This document shows positions 90 to 11,584 of a stretch of DNA of 11,584 bases, in pieces; position 1 is the stretch's first letter, and each line of letters begins with the position of its first letter. Origin of the DNA: Clostridia bacterium (GTDB lineage Bacteria > Bacillota_A > Clostridia > Christensenellales > CAG-138); NCBI GenBank assembly GCA_017553815.1, contig JAFZJT010000035.1:1-11584 (forward strand). Reading direction: 5' to 3'. Made by a program: the position numbers and the translations under genes. The notes beneath the pieces are model-generated. The model did not search any database. It was not told where the DNA came from and worked only from the letters and a program-made list of their open reading frames with translations.

Positions 90-1163
90 TTGGTCGTGGA
101 ATCTATCCAACCCATTAACAGCACAGCGCCAAAACGCAAAACCTGTCGATTGACCGCAATTGAGCTGTTTGCCGGTGCGGGCGGATTAGCTTTGGGGATA
201 GAAAAAGCAGGCTTTGATACATTGGCCTTGATCGAATTGGATAAGGATGCGGCGGATACGCTTAAGCTAAACCGTTCCGATTGGAATGTAATCTGCGAGG
301 ATATTGCGAAGATATCTCCTTTGAATTTGCCTGATTATTTTGACTTGCGTATAGGAGAATTGGACTTGCTGTCAGGAGGTGCACCTTGTCAATCGTTTTC
401 CTATGCAGGAAAACGATTGGGTCTTGAAGATGCGAGAGGAACGCTGTTCTATCACTATGCGGTTTTTTTGCAAAAGCTGAAACCAAAGGCTTTTTTGTTT
501 GAAAACGTCAGAGGTCTTTTGACTCACGACAACGGTCGAACTTACCGAACGATAACGAATGTGTTTACGGACAGCGGCTATATTGTGCAAAACAGAGTGT
601 TGAATGCCTGGGACTATGGCAACGCGCAAAAACGCGAAAGACTTATTACTATAGGTATCCGCAACGATCTGGTTGGGAAGATTTCTATAGATTTTCCACA
701 ACCACGCGAGTATAAGCCGATTTTGCGAGACGTTCTCAAAAATGTGCCTGAAAGTGAAGGTGCGCATTATTCGGATTATAAGCGCGAAATATTCAGCATG
801 GTTCCTCCCGGTGGCTACTGGCGTGATATTCCGCAGGACATTGCAAAAGAGTACATGAAGAGCTGCTGGGATATGGAAGGCGGTAGAACGGGCATTCTGC
901 GCCGAATGAGTATGGATGAACCTTCGCTTGCTGTTTTGACATCGCCATCCCAAAAACAAACCGAACGCTGCCATCCGCTTGAACCGCGCCCGTTTACGGT
1001 ACGGGAGAATGCGCGAATACAGTCGTTTCCTGATGAGTGGCAATTCTGCGGAACCGTTGGAAGCCAATACAGACAGGTCGGAAACGCGGTTCCTGTGAAT
1101 CTTGCTTTTGATATTGCAATGGAAATAAGAAAGGGTTTTGAACGAAAACTATGTGGAATTTAG
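90..1163 (+). CDS. C5-cytosine DNA methyltransferase of a type II restriction-modification system
   Basis: Transfers a methyl group from S-adenosylmethionine to carbon 5 of cytosine in a specific DNA site, protecting host DNA from the endonuclease encoded next to it. The 357 residues carry the ordered motifs of the family: motif I (ELFAGAGGLALG, 25-36), an acidic SAM-contact motif (IELDKD), motif IV with the catalytic cysteine (PCQ, Cys100), motif VI (ENV, 138-140), motif VIII (QKRER, 180-184), motif IX (RENAR, 305-309) and motif X (GNAVP, 331-335). Residues from about 200 to 300 form the target-recognition region. The length is normal for a complete single-site enzyme. The start is TTG at 90, placed about four bases after an AGGCGG ribosome-binding site; GTG at 96 is the alternative. 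It overlaps the endonuclease gene by 13 bases. From the partner's family the site is inferred to be GGNCC. Family assignment is very secure; the site is inference. Confidence 0.96.
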   Translation: MVVESIQPINSTAPKRKTCRLTAIELFAGAGGLALGIEKAGFDTLALIELDKDAADTLKLNRSDWNVICEDIAKISPLNLPDYFDLRIGELDLLSGGAPCQSFSYAGKRLGLEDARGTLFYHYAVFLQKLKPKAFLFENVRGLLTHDNGRTYRTITNVFTDSGYIVQNRVLNAWDYGNAQKRERLITIGIRNDLVGKISIDFPQPREYKPILRDVLKNVPESEGAHYSDYKREIFSMVPPGGYWRDIPQDIAKEYMKSCWDMEGGRTGILRRMSMDEPSLAVLTSPSQKQTERCHPLEPRPFTVRENARIQSFPDEWQFCGTVGSQYRQVGNAVPVNLAFDIAMEIRKGFERKLCGI

Positions 1164-1930
1164 AGTTTATTTCAGAACAGGACTTTAAACGTCATGTTCA
1201 AAACACAATTCAACATTACGGCGAAAAACTGCTTCCGTACGACTTGAAAAAGTTCAATAGCAATATTGTTGATCCAATAAAGCTGATATTTGATAAGAAC
1301 GTTTATCGGTACAGCTGGGAGGATATAATCAAGAATGAAATCTACCGTCAACGCGATAAATCAAGCAATAATGATATTGGCTATTTTCACCAGCGCATTT
1401 TTCAGTACATGAGAGGATGCGATGTTCCCAATACAGGTTGGGACGTGATTTTTTCACCTGAGGGTGGTGTGGATGTTCCCGAATGCGGCAATGTCAAGAC
1501 CATCTATGTGGAAATGAAAAATAAGCATAACACTATGAATTCCGCTTCAAGCGCCAAAACATACATGAAAATGCAAGGGCAGCTCCTGGCGGATGACGAC
1601 TGTGCATGTTTTCTTGTTGAAGCCATTGCTAAAAAATCTCAGAATACAGCATGGGCTGTTTCTGTAGATGGTACAAAGCAAAAGCACCGCAGAATTCGTC
1701 GAGTCAGCATGGATGAATTCTATTATACTGTCACCGGGCAAAGGGAGGCTTTCTATAATATGTGTATGGTTCTTCCGTCTGTCATCGGTGAAGTTGTTTC
1801 AAATGCGGACGGCATTAACATACCTAACGACACTGCTTTTGAAGAGCTTCAACTCATAGCTGATGCAAAAAACGGATCGTTTGCGTTGGCGCTTTATATG
1901 CTCGGATTCGAGAGCTATATTGGTTTCTGA
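1151..1930 (+). CDS. Type II restriction endonuclease, Eco47II/Sau96I family (predicted GGNCC)
   Basis: Predicted to cut unmethylated DNA at the site protected by the upstream methyltransferase. The 259 residues resemble the Eco47II-type endonuclease family over the full length, from the N-terminal FISEQDFKRHV to the RIRRVSMDEFY segment. I recognise the family from conserved blocks: NDIGYFHQRIFQYM, WDVIF and YVEMKNKHNT. Asp98, Glu121 and Lys123 are spaced like a PD-(D/E)XK active site (D-x22-E-x-K); that assignment is mine and is inference. Known members recognise GGNCC. The ATG at 1151 lies inside the end of the methyltransferase gene, and the nearest ribosome-binding-like sequence (AAGAAAGGG, 1127-1135) is some 15 bases upstream. 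Translation is therefore probably coupled to the methyltransferase, so that modification appears before restriction. No frameshift or truncation is seen. Confidence 0.92.
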   Translation: MWNLEFISEQDFKRHVQNTIQHYGEKLLPYDLKKFNSNIVDPIKLIFDKNVYRYSWEDIIKNEIYRQRDKSSNNDIGYFHQRIFQYMRGCDVPNTGWDVIFSPEGGVDVPECGNVKTIYVEMKNKHNTMNSASSAKTYMKMQGQLLADDDCACFLVEAIAKKSQNTAWAVSVDGTKQKHRRIRRVSMDEFYYTVTGQREAFYNMCMVLPSVIGEVVSNADGINIPNDTAFEELQLIADAKNGSFALALYMLGFESYIGF

Positions 1931-2944: not shown

Positions 2945-4498
2945 TTATTTCGCGTACTCGGTTGCTCTCGTTTCCCTGATGACGTTGACCTTTATCTGTC
3001 CGGGATACTCGAGTTCGGCCTCGATGCGCTTGACGATGTCCTTCGCGACGACGATGATGTCGGTGTCGGAAACGGTGTCGCTCTTGACCATTATGCGCAC
3101 CTCGCGACCGGCCTGGATAGCGAAGCTCTTGTCGACGCCGTCGAAGGAGTTTGCGATCTCCTCAAGCTTTTCAAGGCGCTTGATATAGTTTTCAAGCGTT
3201 TCGCGCCTTGCGCCGGGACGAGCCGCCGAGATAGCGTCCGCCGCCTGAACGAGCACGGCCTCGACCGTTCCGGGGTCCACGTCGCCGTGATGGGCGAGGA
3301 TGCAGTGCACGATCTGGTTGTTTTCGCGGTACTTCTTGGCAAGGTCGGCGCCGATCTGGTTGTGGGTGCCTTCCATCTCGTGGTCAACGGCCTTACCGAT
3401 GTCGTGCAGAAGACCCGCGCGCTTTGCGAGCTGAACGTTCACGCCGAGCTCGGTCGCCATAAGGCCGCAGAGATGCGCGACCTCGATGGAGTGCTTCAAA
3501 ACATTCTGACCGTAGCTGGTGCGGTAGCGGAGCCTGCCGAGGAGCCTTACGAGCTCGGGATGCAGGCCGTGGATGCCGACCTCGAAGACGGCCTGTTCGC
3601 CCGCTTCGCGGATCTGGGTCTCGACCTCTTTGCGAGCCTTTTCGACCATTTCCTCGATCCTCGCGGGATGGATGCGGCCGTCGAGGATCAGCTTTTCAAG
3701 GGCGATGCGGGCGATTTCGCGGCGCATCGGGTCGAAGCCGGAGAGGATGACCGCCTCGGGAGTGTCGTCGATGATCAGATCAACGCCGGTCGCGGTTTCA
3801 AGGGTGCGGATATTTCGTCCTTCGCGGCCGATTATCCTGCCCTTCATTTCGTCGTTCGGAAGGGCGACAACGGAGACGGTCGCCTCGGCAACGTGGTCGG
3901 CGGCGCAGCGCTGTATTGCCATCGAGATGATGTTGGTGGCGCGCCTGTCGGCCTCGGCCTTGGTCTTGGCTTCGATATCGCGGATTATGACGGCAGCCTC
4001 GTGGCGCGCGTCCTTCTCCACGTTTGCAAGAAGCACGTTCTTCGCTTCGTCCTGCGTCATGCAGGCGACCCGCTCAAGCTCGCTCTTCTTCTGCTCGTGA
4101 AGCTGATCGATCTCGGCTTCCTTCGCGTCGATGGTCTTGAGGCGCTTGTTGAGCTGCGATTCGCGCTGTTCAAGTCCCTCTAACTTCTTGTCGAAGCTCT
4201 CTTCCTTTTGCTGCAAGCGGCTTTCGGCGCGCTGCAGCTCCTTCCTGCGTTCCTTGTTTTCACGTTCGGTTTCGCTCTTGATGCGGTAGACCTCTTCTTT
4301 CGCCTCAAGCAGCGTTTCTTTTTTGATGGTTTCGGCTCGCTTCTGCGCGTCTTCGATCATCTTTTTGACCATCGAATCGGCTTCGGCGACCTTGGATTCT
4401 GCATTATGCTTATCATACATGTGTATCCCGAAAGCACCTGCCGCCGCGCCGATTATCAGCGCGAGCACGGGAAGCACGTATTGTAACCATGTGGGCAC
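2945..4498 (-). CDS. rny: Ribonuclease Y (membrane-anchored endoribonuclease)
   Basis: Endoribonuclease that starts mRNA decay and processing in Bacillota, acting at the inner face of the membrane. The 517-residue length is normal. Domains in order: one N-terminal membrane segment (about residues 4-26, [20 protein letters not shown]); a long charged coiled coil (about 30-200); a KH RNA-binding domain with GRIIGREG at 220-227; and an HD metal-dependent hydrolase domain with the catalytic pair His365-Asp366 (LLHDIGK), followed by further conserved histidines (AHHGD). The C-terminus ends in the usual [16 protein letters not shown] tail. The start is GTG at 4498, preceded at 7 bases by a full AGGAGGTG ribosome-binding site (4506-4513). 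It has its own promoter (4607-4635), a leader of about 100 bases and its own terminator (2891-2927). Nothing is missing or unusual. Confidence 0.97.
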
Positions 4499-4871: not shown

Positions 4872-4874
4872 TTT
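4857..4874 (+). repeat. Perfect 7-bp inverted repeat overlapping the -35 box of the Roc-HNH gene
   Basis: AAAGCCG (4857-4863) and CGGCTTT (4868-4874) flank a 4-base centre, ATTA. The right arm shares three bases with the -35 element TTTACA at 4872-4877. The placement fits a repressor operator. On the minus strand the same sequence reads as a short hairpin followed by TT, so a weak terminator shielding rny-side sequence is the alternative. The arms are too short to exclude chance. Confidence 0.4.
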
Positions 4875-4900
4875 ACAGGCAAACGCGAAAAAGGTATAAT
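4872..4900 (+). promoter_or_regulatory. Promoter of the LRR-Roc-COR-HNH gene
   Basis: TTTACA (4872-4877) and a perfect TATAAT (4895-4900) are 17 bases apart. The predicted start of transcription is near 4907. This rules out the longer upstream-extended reading frame from 4706 and supports ATG 4955, giving a leader of about 48 bases. Confidence 0.8.
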
Positions 4901-4954
4901 ATAAACGATATCGTGCGAAAAAGCGCGAAACCCAAGGCGAAAGGGGAGCGGAGT

Positions 4955-7822
4955 ATGGAAAAAGTGTGGAAGAGCAACGATATTCTTGAGCTGCTGCAAA
5001 GAATCGATGAAGGCCATGAGCCAACTGCGGAGGAGCGCTCCGCGCTTGAATCGTGCGTTGAGTTGGTTACAACATCTTTCGGGGCAGACAATATTCCTGG
5101 ATCTATAGGCTGGCTTAGCGCACTCGGTTTCCTTAATCTTAGTGGATCAAAGCTGACTAAGCTGCCGGAAACGATAGGACAGCTTGGTGCGCTTGAATAC
5201 CTTGATCTCAGCTTTACAATGCTGACCGAGCTGCCGGAAACGATAGGGCAGCTTGGCGCGCTTAAATACCTTGATCTCAGAGGAACAAAACTGACCGAGC
5301 TGCCGGAAACGATAGGACAGCTTGGCGCGCTTAATCAACTTCATCTCGGTGGAACAAAGCTGACCGAACTGCCGGAAACAATAGGACGGCTTGGCGCGCT
5401 TAAACACCTTGATCTCAGCCGCACAAAGCTGACCGAGCTGCCGGAAAAGATAGGACAACTTGGAAAGCTTGAAAAGCTTTATCTCGACGGAACCGCTTTG
5501 ACCGAGCTGCCGGAAACGATAGGACAGCTCAACATGCTTGAAACCCTTGTTCTTAGATTCACAAAAATGACCGAGCTACCGGAATCGATAGGACGGCTTA
5601 TCGCGCTCAAACGGCTTTCTCTCAGCGGCACTAAGCTGACCGAGCTGCCGGAAATGATTGAGCGGCTTTCAAACTTAAAAGCATTGGATCTTTCGGGACT
5701 GAAGCTAAAGCGCATCCCCCAATCGCTTGCCGAGCTGGGCTTGCCGTTTGTTGACGAAGTAATCTTATCAAGTGGTATTAATCTGCATAATACCATCCTT
5801 GAAGAGCAGAATATCTCCATCTTCCTTAAATCGCCGGAGTTGATACCGAGCTTGTACAACGAAAACGAGCTGACGGAGGTGCGCGAATGCAAGGTCATCT
5901 TTATCGGGGACGGAGGCTCAGGCAAGACACATACGATAGAGCGCATCAAGAATCGCGGCGAAAAGAAGGATTATAAAACAAAGGTCACACACGGCGTGAA
6001 GATATCCGATTATAAGCCCGACGATAGGGATTTTACGATAAATTTCTGGGATTTCGGCGGGCAGGAGATACAGCATTCGATGCATCGCTGCTTTCTTACT
6101 GAGGATACCTGCTACGTGGTCACGGTACGAACGAGGGAAAGCGCGGGCGATAAGGGCGCGGAGTTCTGGCTGCGCAACGTTGAGGCGTTCGCGCCGAATG
6201 CTCCGGTGCTGCTCTTCATAAACTGCTGGGATAATAAAGACGGAAGGCGCTTTGTAAACGAAACGGAGCTAAGGGCGTTTTTCCCTAATATAGTGGATAT
6301 CGTTTACTGCTCGGCCTTGGATACGGAGGCGGAGGAGTTTAATAAGAACGTGACCGAAAGCATGGTCCGCATGGTGGAGGCTTCGGGCTATTGCAAAAAG
6401 GAAGTTTCCCGGCGATGGATGAAAACGGCTGAGGATATTCGCAGGGAAAACACAAAGTGCATAACTAAAGAGCAATACCGCAAAATCTGCAACGATAACG
6501 GGATAGAGGAGAACGAGTATTCCGCTCTTTTGACCTTCTTCAATAATCTCGGCGTTTGCCTGAGCTATCATAAGGATGAGAATAATAAGGAGCTTGAGCA
6601 GTATATGGTGCTCGATCCGGTATGGATAACGAATGCGCTCTATGCGGTAATAGAGGAAGGCGGGGATCACTCGGATAACGGAATGATACTGAACTCATCC
6701 ATCGCTTCAATGCTTGAAAACGATGGGTCAAAGAAATTGAAGGGGGAGGAATACGAGCGAACCGCGCCGGAGCTCAAATATGAACCGGATGAATGCCCGT
6801 ACATAATCAGCGTGGCAGCCTCGCGCGATCTATGCTATATTGTGGATGACAAAACTACCTTCTTTCCGGTTTTGTGCGATCCAAACTCGCCGAAGGCGGC
6901 GCTCGGCAATTTTGATACGTATCAAGAGCGCGCGGAGTATGTTTTTAAATATGAGTATCTTCCGGACAGCGTTGTGCATAAGCTGATGGTGCGCTGCTAT
7001 AGAAGGGAAATGAAGGTGATTGCCTGCTGGCGAAAGGGCATGGTTTTGGGCGTTCTCGGGGAGCTGAAGGCGGTTATCCGAATGGAAAACGATGACAAGA
7101 CCCTTAGGATCAACTTCTATTCAACTCCGACGCGCCCCGCCTGCGAGCTCTTCCCGTATATCAGGGATGAGATACTTGCAATAAACCGGGAGCTGAATCT
7201 AAGCGCGGAGGAGAGCATTATTAAGGGTGAAGATGAATTCTTCGCTGCAAGGCTGGTAAAGGCATATCGGAATAAGAAAAAGACTGTTGAGGGCAGCCGC
7301 ACCGGCGAGGAATACGATCCCTTCGAGCTGCTTGCAAGCGTTTTCGATATTTTTTCAATCGTTTGTCTTGAGGAGCGGGATGGCAAGCTGAAAGATATAC
7401 AGAGGGGCAGGTTTCATAAACAGGATAAGGAGGATAAAGCTTTCCGCCAGGCTCTATGGGAGGCACATGGCAAAGAGTGTAGTTACTGCGGGGTGCCCCT
7501 ACATCGACTGTATGATATGCAGGTCGATCATATTTTGCCAACGAAATTCGCTAAGCAGCTTAAAAATGCGGACGGCAGAGCCCGGCGCTACATTAATAGG
7601 CTCGAGGCGAAGGGCTTTGATTTGGAAGCGCCGGATTATATTGAGAACTTCCTTCCTTCTTGCGTACACTGCAATCAAAGCATGCAGAACAGGATAATGA
7701 CCGCAGATTCGATGTGCTTTTACCACGAGAAGGCCGTTCGCAAAACTCCGTACGTACTGGAAAGGATGGATAAGCTTAAATGCGATAAGAAAAAGGGCAG
7801 GGAAGAATTGAAAAAGCATTGA
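4955..7822 (+). CDS. LRR-Roc-COR-HNH fusion: Roco-type GTPase with a C-terminal HNH nuclease
   Basis: Predicted intracellular sensor-switch-effector protein of 955 residues. Residues 51-257 are nine leucine-rich repeats of exactly 23 residues (IGQLGALKYLDLRGTKLTEL type), a likely ligand-sensing solenoid. About 310-460 is a Roc (Ras of complex proteins) GTPase: P-loop GDGGSGKT (318-325), G3 DFGGQE (366-371), an NCWD at the G4 position (423-426, lysine replaced) and a G5-like SALD. About 505-745 resembles a COR dimerisation region, including an EYLPDSVV block and a CWRKGMVL block. The C-terminus is an HNH nuclease: zinc pairs Cys842/Cys845 and Cys903/Cys906, catalytic-type Asp858-His859 and Asn898. 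ATG 4955 follows AAGGGGAG (4941-4948) by 6 bases and lies downstream of the promoter at 4872-4900. The gene stands alone, without operon partners. LRR and Roc assignments are secure, HNH strong, COR good. A defence or suicide role is inference. Confidence 0.93.
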   Translation: MEKVWKSNDILELLQRIDEGHEPTAEERSALESCVELVTTSFGADNIPGSIGWLSALGFLNLSGSKLTKLPETIGQLGALEYLDLSFTMLTELPETIGQLGALKYLDLRGTKLTELPETIGQLGALNQLHLGGTKLTELPETIGRLGALKHLDLSRTKLTELPEKIGQLGKLEKLYLDGTALTELPETIGQLNMLETLVLRFTKMTELPESIGRLIALKRLSLSGTKLTELPEMIERLSNLKALDLSGLKLKRIPQSLAELGLPFVDEVILSSGINLHNTILEEQNISIFLKSPELIPSLYNENELTEVRECKVIFIGDGGSGKTHTIERIKNRGEKKDYKTKVTHGVKISDYKPDDRDFTINFWDFGGQEIQHSMHRCFLTEDTCYVVTVRTRESAGDKGAEFWLRNVEAFAPNAPVLLFINCWDNKDGRRFVNETELRAFFPNIVDIVYCSALDTEAEEFNKNVTESMVRMVEASGYCKKEVSRRWMKTAEDIRRENTKCITKEQYRKICNDNGIEENEYSALLTFFNNLGVCLSYHKDENNKELEQYMVLDPVWITNALYAVIEEGGDHSDNGMILNSSIASMLENDGSKKLKGEEYERTAPELKYEPDECPYIISVAASRDLCYIVDDKTTFFPVLCDPNSPKAALGNFDTYQERAEYVFKYEYLPDSVVHKLMVRCYRREMKVIACWRKGMVLGVLGELKAVIRMENDDKTLRINFYSTPTRPACELFPYIRDEILAINRELNLSAEESIIKGEDEFFAARLVKAYRNKKKTVEGSRTGEEYDPFELLASVFDIFSIVCLEERDGKLKDIQRGRFHKQDKEDKAFRQALWEAHGKECSYCGVPLHRLYDMQVDHILPTKFAKQLKNADGRARRYINRLEAKGFDLEAPDYIENFLPSCVHCNQSMQNRIMTADSMCFYHEKAVRKTPYVLERMDKLKCDKKKGREELKKH
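5105..5725 (+). repeat. Nine tandem 69-bp repeats encoding the leucine-rich repeats
   Basis: The coding sequence repeats with an exact 69-base period (23 codons). The equivalent codon of the LTELPET block falls at 5153, 5222, 5291, 5360, 5429, 5498, 5567, 5636 and 5705. Several units are nearly identical at the DNA level, for example those around 5222 and 5291 over more than 40 bases, including synonymous positions. The last unit is the most diverged. This suggests recent unit duplication or homogenisation rather than an ancient solenoid. Confidence 0.93.
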
Positions 7823-7865: not shown

Positions 7866-7910
7866 ATCGACCCGCGGGGCTGTTTCGCTGTCGCGCCCGA
7901 TCCTTACATA

Positions 7911-7939
7911 TTGACGGCCGCATCCATCTATGTTATACT
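7911..7939 (+). promoter_or_regulatory. Promoter of the small membrane-protein gene
   Basis: TTGACG (7911-7916) and TATACT (7934-7939) are 17 bases apart, each matching five of six consensus positions. A TG dinucleotide upstream of the -10 (TGTTATACT) gives a partly extended element. Transcription would begin near 7946, within a GGAGA/TCTCC inverted repeat (7946-7958). Confidence 0.8.
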
Positions 7940-8015: not shown

Positions 8016-8429
8016 ATGAACAAAACCAAACTCGGAATCTCGACCCATCTGCTTGCCGCCATACTGTATTTGCTCGGCCTGTTCGGAAACACGGTGGCGT
8101 TAGTCATCGCGGCCGGATACGTGCTCATCCGCGAGGATGACGAATGGCTGCGCAAATCGGCGATCAAGGCGCTCGTCATCCATGTTTTCATCACCGCGCT
8201 CACCTACGTTATCGCATTCATCCCCGGCGTTTTCGAGGCGATAAACAGCTTTATCAACATCTTCAAGGGAAGCTTCAACTATTCCTTCCTGCTGAGGATA
8301 AGGGAATTCCTCGACGACGCGCTCATAGTCGTTCGCTATGCGGTATTCATCGTGCTCGCGTTCCTTGCGCTCAAGGGCAAGGGCGTTGCGCTTCCGGGCG
8401 TGGACGACACGGTTCAGAAGCATTCCTAA
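8016..8429 (+). CDS. Small integral membrane protein, DUF4870/Tic20-like
   Basis: The 137-residue protein has about three hydrophobic membrane segments: roughly residues 8-36 (HLLAAILYLLGLFGNTVALV onward), 46-70 (ALVIHVFITALTYVIAFIPG) and 102-122 (ALIVVRYAVFIVLAFLAL). The short hydrophilic connection after the first segment (REDDEWLRKSAIKAL) resembles the charged 'few-residue then helix' pattern of DUF4870-type proteins, where a K/R-D-E-D-x-x-V-R-like turn precedes the second helix. The biochemical function of that group is not established. The start is ATG 8016 after AAGAGG, with unusually tight spacing; an in-frame stop at 8007 excludes a longer form. It is a monocistronic unit with its own promoter (7911-7939) and terminator (8477-8506). 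The family call is tentative; membrane topology is well supported. Confidence 0.82.
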   Translation: MNKTKLGISTHLLAAILYLLGLFGNTVALVIAAGYVLIREDDEWLRKSAIKALVIHVFITALTYVIAFIPGVFEAINSFINIFKGSFNYSFLLRIREFLDDALIVVRYAVFIVLAFLALKGKGVALPGVDDTVQKHS

Positions 8430-8824: not shown

Positions 8825-9032
8825 CAACGGCGCGGCGATATGCATGGACAATACCGCCGCAACCCGAGCCGAAGCATAGCTTTTCGTTGGGCGCTAAGAA
8901 TAATGCTGTGAATGCCGCGATCGAACTGCGGAAAGAGGTTAAATTGCGGAGATTCCGAAGGGAAAGAGACCTCAATCATTCACTATTCATTATTCAATAT
9001 TCACTAATATTAAACCCAAAGAGGTGATAGAT
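8825..9032 (+). other. Long 5' leader of clpB
   Basis: About 230 bases of transcript precede the clpB start codon. An open frame of 69 codons crosses the CIRCE arm from a GTG at 8818, but has no ribosome-binding site and is not credible. Apart from the heptanucleotide repeat at 8978-9005 I see no recognisable riboswitch or terminator in it. Confidence 0.6.
8978..9005 (+). repeat. Four tandem heptamers (ATTCANT) just upstream of the clpB ribosome-binding site
   Basis: ATTCA recurs at 8978, 8985, 8992 and 8999 with an exact 7-base period: ATTCACT, ATTCATT, ATTCAAT, ATTCACT. The run ends 15 bases before the GAGGTG ribosome-binding site (9021-9026). Short tandem repeats like this can change copy number by slippage. 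Confidence 0.85.
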
Positions 9033-11584
9033 ATGAATGCAGAGAAAATGACACAGAAGACGCTTGAAACGCTGAATCAGGCGCAGAAGCTTGCGGAGGA
9101 GCGCAGGCATACGCAGGTGGGGCAGATCCACGCCCTGTATGCGCTGACGAACGACGCGGACGACCTCAACACCCAGCTTTTGACCGCGATGGGCGTGAAG
9201 ATCGACGAATTCCGTGCGACTGTTGAAGCGGAGCTTAGGAAGCAGGCGAGCTACGGCGGCGGAAGCGGCGGGCAGCTCTACATAACGAGCGAGCTCAATT
9301 CCGCGCTAAACCGCGCCGAGGACGAGGCCAAGGCGATGGGCGACAGCTATATCTCGGTGGAGCATATCATGCTCGGCCTCATCGAGAAGGCGGACGGCGT
9401 GCTCAAGCCGCTGTTCAAGCGCTTCAATATCGAAAGAAACGCCTATTTGACCGTGCTTAGGCAGGTGCGCGGCAATACGCGCATCAACAGTGACAACCCC
9501 GAAAGCACCTACGACGTGCTCAATAAATACGGTCAGGATCTGACCGAACTTGCGAAAAAGCAGAAGCTCGACCCCGTGATCGGGCGCGATAACGAGATAA
9601 GAAGCGTTATCCGCATCCTTTCGAGGAAAACCAAGAACAATCCCTGCCTTATCGGCGAGCCAGGCGTTGGTAAGACCGCCATCGCGGAGGGTCTGGCGCA
9701 GAGGATAGTGCGCGGCGACGTGCCCGATAACCTCAAGGACAGAAAGCTCTTCGCGCTCGATATGGGCGCGCTGGTCGCGGGCGCGAAGTACCGCGGCGAA
9801 TTCGAGGAGAGGCTAAAGGCCGTTCTGAACGAAATAAAGCAGAGTGACGGCAGAATTATCCTTTTTATAGACGAACTTCATACCATCGTTGGCGCGGGCA
9901 AGAGCGACGGCGCGATGGACGCGGGCAATATTCTCAAGCCCATGCTGGCGCGCGGCGAGCTGCATTGTATCGGCGCAACAACGCTCGATGAATACAGAAA
10001 ATACATCGAAAAGGACGCGGCGCTCGAGAGGCGTTTCCAGCCCGTTACCGTCGCAGAACCCTCGGTTGAGGACACGATCTCGATACTGCGCGGCCTGAAG
10101 GAGCGCTATGAGGTCTATCACGGCGTTAAGATACACGACGGCGCGCTGATCGCCGCCGCCACGCTCTCCGATAGGTATATTTCGGATCGTTTCCTGCCCG
10201 ATCAGGCCATCGACCTTGTGGACGAGGCCTGCGCGCTCATCAAGACCGAGATGAACTCGATGCCGAGCGAGATGGACGAGATCTCAAGGCGTATCATGCA
10301 GCTTGAGATCGAGGAGCAGGCGCTTAAAAACGACACCGACTCGCATACCGTGGAGCATCTTGGCGAGATTCGCGAGGAGCTTGCAAAGCAACGCGAAAAA
10401 CTCAATGAGATGAAGGCAAAATGGGAGAACGAGAAGAACGCGATAGGCAGGGTGCAGCAGCTCCGCGAGCGCATCGAGCAGGTCAACGCCGAGATACAGA
10501 AGGCCAAGAGCGACTACAATCTGGAGATCGCCGCCAAGCTTGAATACGGCGAGCTGCCCCGACTTCAAAAGGAGCTTGAGGCGGAGGAGAGGAAGGGCGC
10601 GGAGCGCGAAAACAGCCTGCTTCGCGATCACGTTTCCTCCGAGGAAATTGCGAAGATAGTCGCCCGCTGGACGGGTATCCCGGTTTCAAAGCTGCTTGAG
10701 AGCGAAAGAAAGAAGCTTCTGCGGCTCGATGAACAGCTCCACCGCCGCATAATCGGGCAGGATGAGGCCGTGCGCCGCGTTTGCGACGCTATCCTCCGCT
10801 CGCGCGCGGGCATCCAGAACCCGAACCGCCCGATAGGCTCGTTCCTGTTCATGGGACCGACGGGCGTGGGCAAAACCGAGCTCTGCAAGGCGCTCGCCGA
10901 AGCCATGTTCGATGATGAAAGAAGCATGGTGCGTATAGATATGAGCGAATACATGGAGCAGTACTCCGTGTCCCGTCTCATCGGCGCCCCTCCGGGCTAC
11001 GTTGGCTACGACGAGGGCGGCCAGCTCACCGAGGCCGTGCGCAGAAAGCCTTATGCGGTATTGCTTTTTGACGAGGTGGAGAAGGCGCATCCGGACGTTT
11101 TGAACGTGCTTCTTCAGGTGCTTGACGACGGCAGGATAACCGACGGTCAGGGTCGCACCGTGGACTTTAAGAACACGATAATCATTCTGACATCTAACCT
11201 CGGCAGCGACCTCATCCTGAATGAGATGGAATCGGGCGAGCTGACGGACGAAACGCAGGAGCTTCTAAACAAGCTTCTAAAATCCAAGTTCCGCCCCGAG
11301 TTCATAAACAGGCTTGATGAGATAGTCTACTTCCGCGCGCTCACGAATGAGAATATGCGCGGCATAATCGACTTGCAGCTTAATGACCTCGCCCGCCGTA
11401 TGGGCGAAAGAAGGCTCGAGCTTGCCGTGACCGACGCGGCTAAGACCGCCATCCTCGAAAACGGCACTGACCCGCTCTTCGGCGCGCGTCCCATCAAGCG
11501 CTTCATCCAGAGCCGCATCGAAAGCCTTATCGCAAGGTTCATCATAGCGGAAAGCCCCGAGGAGGGCGCGATCGTGACCGTGGA
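9033..11584 (+). CDS. clpB: ATP-dependent disaggregase ClpB (3' end cut by the window)
   Basis: Hexameric AAA+ chaperone that, with DnaK, threads aggregated proteins through its pore to rescue them after heat stress. 850 codons are visible; family members end near 860-870 residues, so only a short C-terminal tail is missing. Domains: N-terminal double Clp repeat (about 1-145); first AAA+ module with Walker A GEPGVGKT (208-215), Walker B with Asp280-Glu281, and the pore loop near [10 protein letters not shown]; a long coiled-coil middle domain (about 400-520), which separates ClpB from ClpA; second AAA+ module with GPTGVGKT (608-615), Walker B Asp680-Glu681, and pore-loop GYVGYDEGG. The length of the middle domain argues for ClpB rather than ClpC. 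ATG 9033 follows GAGGTG (9021-9026) at 6 bases. Expression is expected to be heat-induced through the CIRCE element at 8798-8824. Confidence 0.97.

Follow-up and report, generated by a model that had tools for sequence, protein, structure and literature searches.

The 11,584-nucleotide stretch of clostridial DNA analysed here (the window) encodes, on the forward strand at 4955..7822, a 955-residue protein that joins leucine-rich repeats (LRRs), a Roc GTPase domain, a COR region and an HNH nuclease domain in a single polypeptide. The gene is preceded by a predicted sigma-70-like promoter (TTTACA-17-TATAAT, 11 of 12 matches; 4872..4900, forward strand) and by a putative ribosome-binding site, AAGGGGAG, read by eye at 4941..4948 of the same strand. 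On its left lies the conserved gene for RNase Y (2945..4498, reverse strand; TIGR03319, 3.2e-234). On its right, both on the forward strand, are a conserved gene for a small membrane-like protein (8016..8429), which is 88% identical in the related locus L001 and in which no Pfam family scores above cut-off, and the conserved gene for the chaperone ClpB (9024..11584; TIGR03346 above cut-off), cut by the end of the window. The far left is occupied by a type II restriction-modification pair, a C5 DNA methyltransferase (90..1163, forward strand; PF00145, 3.8e-83) and an Eco47II-family restriction endonuclease (1151..1930, forward strand; PF09553, 2.7e-89), whose genes overlap by 13 bases (1151-1163).

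The LRRs of the fusion protein span residues 36-261 (5060..5737), with nine 23-residue units recognized by pattern matching, and the DNA of this region contains a 69-bp tandem array (5131-5658; 7.7 copies, 77% matches). They are followed, all on the forward strand, by the Roc (Ras-like) GTPase domain (residues 309-456; 5879..6322, with the P-loop at 5906-5929), COR-A (residues 486-638; 6410..6868), COR-B (residues 659-788; 6929..7318) and, beginning a few tens of residues past COR-B, the predicted HNH nuclease domain (residues 830-925; 7442..7729), with the signature residues C842, C845, D858, H859 (7529-7531), N898, C903, C906 and N907. Roc, COR-A and COR-B, arranged in tandem, each pass the Pfam cut-off, and the top structural match of the protein is CtRoco of Chlorobium tepidum (PDB 6hlu; Foldseek E 1.7e-33), with which it shares the LRR-Roc-COR architecture and fold. 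Pfam, the structural matches and the HNH residues agree with the domain reading of the original prediction, and the fusion of LRRs, Roc, COR-A/COR-B and a C-terminal HNH domain in one protein is confirmed. The parallel that had been drawn with STAND-type immune sensors holds for the modular sensor-switch-effector layout, which is backed by the relatives described below, but not for the NTPase, which is a Ras-like Roc domain: no STAND family is present among the 20 Pfam families that match the protein at E values up to 1, and Roc, Ras and Arf are.

A homologue search with residues 268-955 as the query, which scored the 7992 candidates sharing the most words with it, returned 327 proteins, 120 of which were listed. 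An HNH region is present in 87 of these 120, the window's own entry counted; the fusion is a conserved arrangement. A FastTree phylogeny of Roc-COR, built from 97 representative rows, places the HNH proteins within a single set of 45 rows (43 with HNH and two with cut tails) with a support of 96, support values in this tree being of modest trust. Twelve loci recovered from species genomes by a scan with one peptide pattern all come from metagenome-assembled genomes (MAGs) of Clostridia, Clostridiales or Oscillospiraceae, five of them, by their titles, from sheep or buffalo rumen or goat abomasum. The distribution is patchy: among 396 genomes sampled from the order of genome G001, and among 350 from the family of G004, the HNH-Roco occurs in one each, the sole carriers being G001 and G004, the genomes used as centres, and a COR domain of any kind occurs in eight of the 350. 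By tblastn, none of 50,697 phage records matches the HNH-Roco, and 11 of 72,556 plasmid records do, none over more than 80% of the query.

In all of 44 aligned proteins, G318, G320, G323 and K324 of G1, the DFGGQ of G3, N423 of G4 and the serine of G5 are present. Position 426 of G4 is variable (Asp in 12, Glu in 24, Gly in seven and Met in one), the window protein having Asp in its NCWD motif. Since the G4 aspartate is found in only 12 of the 44 proteins, the preference of the family for GTP is not certain.

C842, C845, H859, E897, N898 and N907 are invariant in all 87 HNH-bearing proteins listed, thus including the first CxxC, the catalytic histidine and both asparagines; in the second zinc pair, position 903 is His or Cys throughout and position 906 is Cys in 82 of the 87. 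The Pfam HNH score of the whole window protein falls just short of the cut-off, and PF01844 is matched by 16 of 16 members when the HNH region is scanned alone. The best PADLOC match of the domain is PtuB of the Septu system (1.5e-6). In the structure model the nearest structure is the HNH domain of Cap5, with other defence HNHs also listed; these matches are of middling strength. Cap5 is a CBASS effector that destroys the DNA of the invader or the host chromosome; it is gated by a cyclic nucleotide via a SAVED domain, whereas in the HNH-Roco the nuclease is joined to LRR-Roc-COR. PtuB differs as well, in that it is a protein of its own that works with the ATPase PtuA.

A comparison of the window with L001, from a goat abomasum Clostridia MAG, and with the equivalent site of genome G002 (L079) shows the bounds of the gene. 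In L001 the Roco gene is preceded by the same TATAAT and 5' leader and followed by the right flank of the window, with the membrane-like protein and ClpB. In G002 the order is RNase Y, a surface protein, the membrane-like protein and ClpB, with no Roco between them; its RNase Y is 98% identical to that of the window and its surface protein 83% identical to that of L001, and the identity in ClpB is 96%. The homology of this site to L001 ends at L001 position 4049 and restarts at 6868, and the right edge is common to the window, where homology restarts at 7908, 3 bases ahead of a promoter-like site (7911-7939) that belongs to the following gene. By these breaks, the Roco gene together with its own promoter is a single-gene cassette, present or absent as a unit at the RNase Y-ClpB locus. 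No integrase was seen in the compared stretches of the three sites, and G002 has an HNH-Roco on a different contig. The large surface protein beside the Roco in L001 (L001:627-3932), with F5/8 type C and Cna_B domains, is the one present in G002; in the window it is missing from the interval that separates RNase Y from the Roco.

The LRR region differs in length between proteins that are otherwise nearly the same. The cores of P0004, P0005 and the L059 protein are 96-98% identical, but their LRR regions measure 270, 155 and 316 residues and so differ by 5, 2 and 7 units of 23 residues. Cores at least 85% identical were shared by 25 of the pairs listed, five of which represented a single gene called twice and were removed; in 11 of the remaining 20 the LRR lengths are offset by a whole, non-zero number of 23-residue units, two are of equal length and seven differ in other ways. 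These pairs overlap one another and come from a protein database whose clustering at 90% identity favours pairs with differing LRRs. Start codons are not the same in all sources, and part of the length differences may stem from the collapse of tandem repeats by metagenome assemblers. At the predicted concave face of the repeats (the x positions of LxxLxLxx), pN exceeds pS with a bootstrap interval above zero in three of six genes (L006, L008 and L059); the excess is not significant in the window gene (-0.10 to 0.20) or in L001, and L010 leans the opposite way, third-position GC bias being able to depress pS in the GC-rich genes of this test.

Between the window and L001, amino acid identity decreases from 95.7% in ClpB to 85.8% in Roc-COR, 66.8% in the LRRs and 64.9% in HNH, and dN/dS is 0.06 for ClpB, 0.21 for Roc-COR, 0.28 for HNH and 0.51 for the LRRs, where the pairing of repeats is uncertain; the dN of Roc-COR, HNH and LRRs each exceeds that of ClpB. 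In the same gene pair dS reaches 0.89 in the HNH segment (window 7310-7819 against the L001 C-terminus) compared with 0.35 in Roc-COR, which suggests that the effector module has recombined.

The C-terminal domain also varies among the relatives of the HNH-Rocos, in some cases within one genome. Three COR genes are present in G001, two with HNH and one with a TIR-like tail (L060:8131-10971; TIR_2 E 0.0061, below cut-off) whose relatives P0124-P0127 and P0130 are assigned PF13676 in a precomputed list; G009 has four COR genes, three with HNH and one with a clear TIR domain (L062:1691-4690; 7.6e-23). A DpnII-MboI domain (PF18742) is listed at the C-terminus of P0209, P0210, P0221, P0224 and P0226 and was confirmed in the two of these five that were scanned, P0209 and P0224 (2.8e-12 and 4.1e-10). 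The Roc-COR of the restriction endonuclease-bearing P0209 is 79% shared with that of P0217, and beyond their first 70-80 residues the tails of the two proteins no longer align. On the Roc-COR tree TIR requires two changes, L062 sitting on a long branch. In PADLOC the tails of L062 and P0209 resemble a pAgo-associated TIR and a pAgo-associated restriction endonuclease, respectively, and the tail of L060 has no match.

Other tails were recognized by eye. P0089-P0095, kin of the HNH clade, have a short Gly/Asn-rich tail of the GDTNAPILIGDDGTLNN type instead of HNH and may act through polymerisation of the tail or together with an effector that is a separate protein. L069, P0192, P0193 and P0225 carry another C-terminal module with the look of a restriction endonuclease fold, to which a Pfam scan of L069 and P0192 gave no hits; P0192 has two Roc-COR units. 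Among the matches listed, P0098-P0120 and many of P0131-P0230 end in a coiled coil and, after it, a hydrophobic helical stretch and are possibly membrane-active or adaptor proteins.

The neighbourhoods of the HNH-Rocos do not support a defence-island argument, and the proposed check of whether homologues sit in such islands came out weak to negative, since 13 of 14 loci, several on short contigs, lack a recognizable defence system; the exception is the window itself, where the restriction-modification pair lies two genes away. PADLOC, run on 96 neighbour proteins of the 14 loci, gave no recognizable defence system outside the window among the best 25 of 79 families, and for 87 of the 96 (leaving aside the window pair, Clp and ABC-type ATPases) it matched ten families, none of which alone is a known system. 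At most of the other loci the neighbours look metabolic or housekeeping-like, as judged by eye with nine neighbours scanned, and the HNH-Roco of L004 adjoins a large serine recombinase. Just downstream of the HNH-Roco in L006 (2975-5605) is an EF-G-like translation factor fused to a YacP-type NYN domain.

STAND systems such as Avs and bNACHT resemble the HNH-Rocos in placing sensor, NTPase switch and exchangeable effector on one chain; they differ in that the switch is a STAND ATPase and the effector usually N-terminal, whereas the HNH-Roco has a Ras-like GTPase. A closer precedent is the class of prokaryotic counter-invader proteins predicted computationally by Kaur et al. (eLife 2021; PMC8195603), with LRRs, an AP-GTPase (Roco), COR and at least 24 C-terminal domains; the passage of that paper that names GT4, TIR, DRHyd, caspase, trypsin, FGS and EADs as effectors does not include HNH. 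This layout, with a variable C-terminal effector, is found in the HNH-Roco and its relatives, which share with the class fast-evolving LRRs (PMC8195603) and, in the relatives' genomes G001 and G009, multiple paralogues with different effectors. The sensor-switch-effector idea is therefore not new; the present analysis adds to it an HNH clade with an invariant active site, LRR turnover between close relatives and a Roco-free site. In the open-licence literature searched we found no experiment on bacterial Rocos in defence and no mention of an HNH-Roco by name, and the earlier statement that no characterised Roco carries a C-terminal HNH agrees with that literature. A 2019 review reports only LRRs ahead of RocCOR in all prokaryotic Rocos identified by then (PMC6337361). 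The ROCOs of brown algae, candidate immune receptors with LRR-ROC-COR, LRR shuffling and diversifying selection, are eukaryotic, shuffle by exons and keep the ancestral LRR-ROC-COR arrangement, no nuclease being mentioned in the abstract of the study (PMC11378527). The HNH-Roco is real and belongs to a kind of protein already predicted; its mechanism is one that we infer.

Effector swapping, paralogues, LRR turnover, patchy presence and the empty site lend support to the sensor-switch-effector reading. We consider it reasonably probable that the HNH-Roco is an intracellular immune-type receptor in which binding of a ligand by the LRRs leads, through Roc-COR, to the cutting of DNA by HNH; an immune role as such is likely. 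The variable LRR solenoid would bind a foreign or stress ligand, Roc-COR would relay the signal to the HNH domain downstream of COR-B, and the HNH domains, once set free or brought into new pairs, would, judging from their fold and conserved residues, cut the DNA of the invader or the host chromosome. CtRoco, studied as a model of LRRK2, becomes an open monomer upon GTP binding (PMC11052575), and the C-terminal part of COR mediates its dimerisation (PMC6337361); as the HNH follows closely behind COR-B, a nucleotide-driven change in COR could expose the nuclease domains or bring them together.

The same architecture could serve a stress or housekeeping regulator, with LRRs that sense a cellular signal and an HNH acting in DNA repair, recombination or a programmed stress response. 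The position of the window Roco beside RNase Y, its place just upstream of ClpB in both the window and L001, and the metabolic or housekeeping-like neighbours at most other loci fit this alternative, but it appears improbable, as the gene occurs in very few sampled relatives and is missing from the equivalent locus of G002, its Roc-COR, HNH and LRRs each exceed ClpB in dN, and effectors differ between paralogues of one genome. The receptor might also respond to mobile DNA (plasmids, integrative elements) or to other cells and not to phage, the mechanism being the same and the trigger different. The modular evidence applies equally to such a conflict, L004 has its adjacent serine recombinase, and HNH nucleases of the PtuB and McrA types defend against foreign DNA; we give this variant a small chance.

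A role of the HNH-like module as an adaptor, binding zinc or nucleic acid with no cutting, would suit the sub-threshold whole-protein Pfam score and the middling structural matches, but is very unlikely given the invariance of the catalytic histidine and both asparagines and the uniform recovery of PF01844 from the isolated regions. Hardly credible is the idea that the protein is an LRR effector, secreted or injected to act on eukaryotes or on other bacteria: the LRRs do resemble the XopAC/XopL-type models of NCBIfam, far under their cut-offs (XopAC, 141 of 450 bits), but this match is generic, Roc-COR is a known intracellular switch and no strongly hydrophobic or signal-like segment was found in the window protein, the top 19-residue mean being 1.39 at residue 787.

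If the favoured reading, an immune-type receptor with a nuclease output, is true, it would assign an immune job to the bacterial Rocos of the LRRK2 (Parkinson's protein) family, the function of which is poorly known. By extension, and tentatively, the LRRK2-type proteins of bacteria may be GTPase-switched analogues of NLRs, among which the HNH clade would represent a self-contained, single-gene DNase receptor, with a ligand range that shifts by gain and loss of whole 23-residue LRR units and by exchange of effectors. The HNH-Roco joins the switch to an assayable enzyme, so that its nuclease output could be followed while nucleotide state and LRR ligand are varied, and both the bacterial function and the mechanism of Roc-COR gating could thereby be tested in a single protein. 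Natural pairs of the family, nearly identical in the switch but with different LRR arrays, would be useful for finding the ligands.
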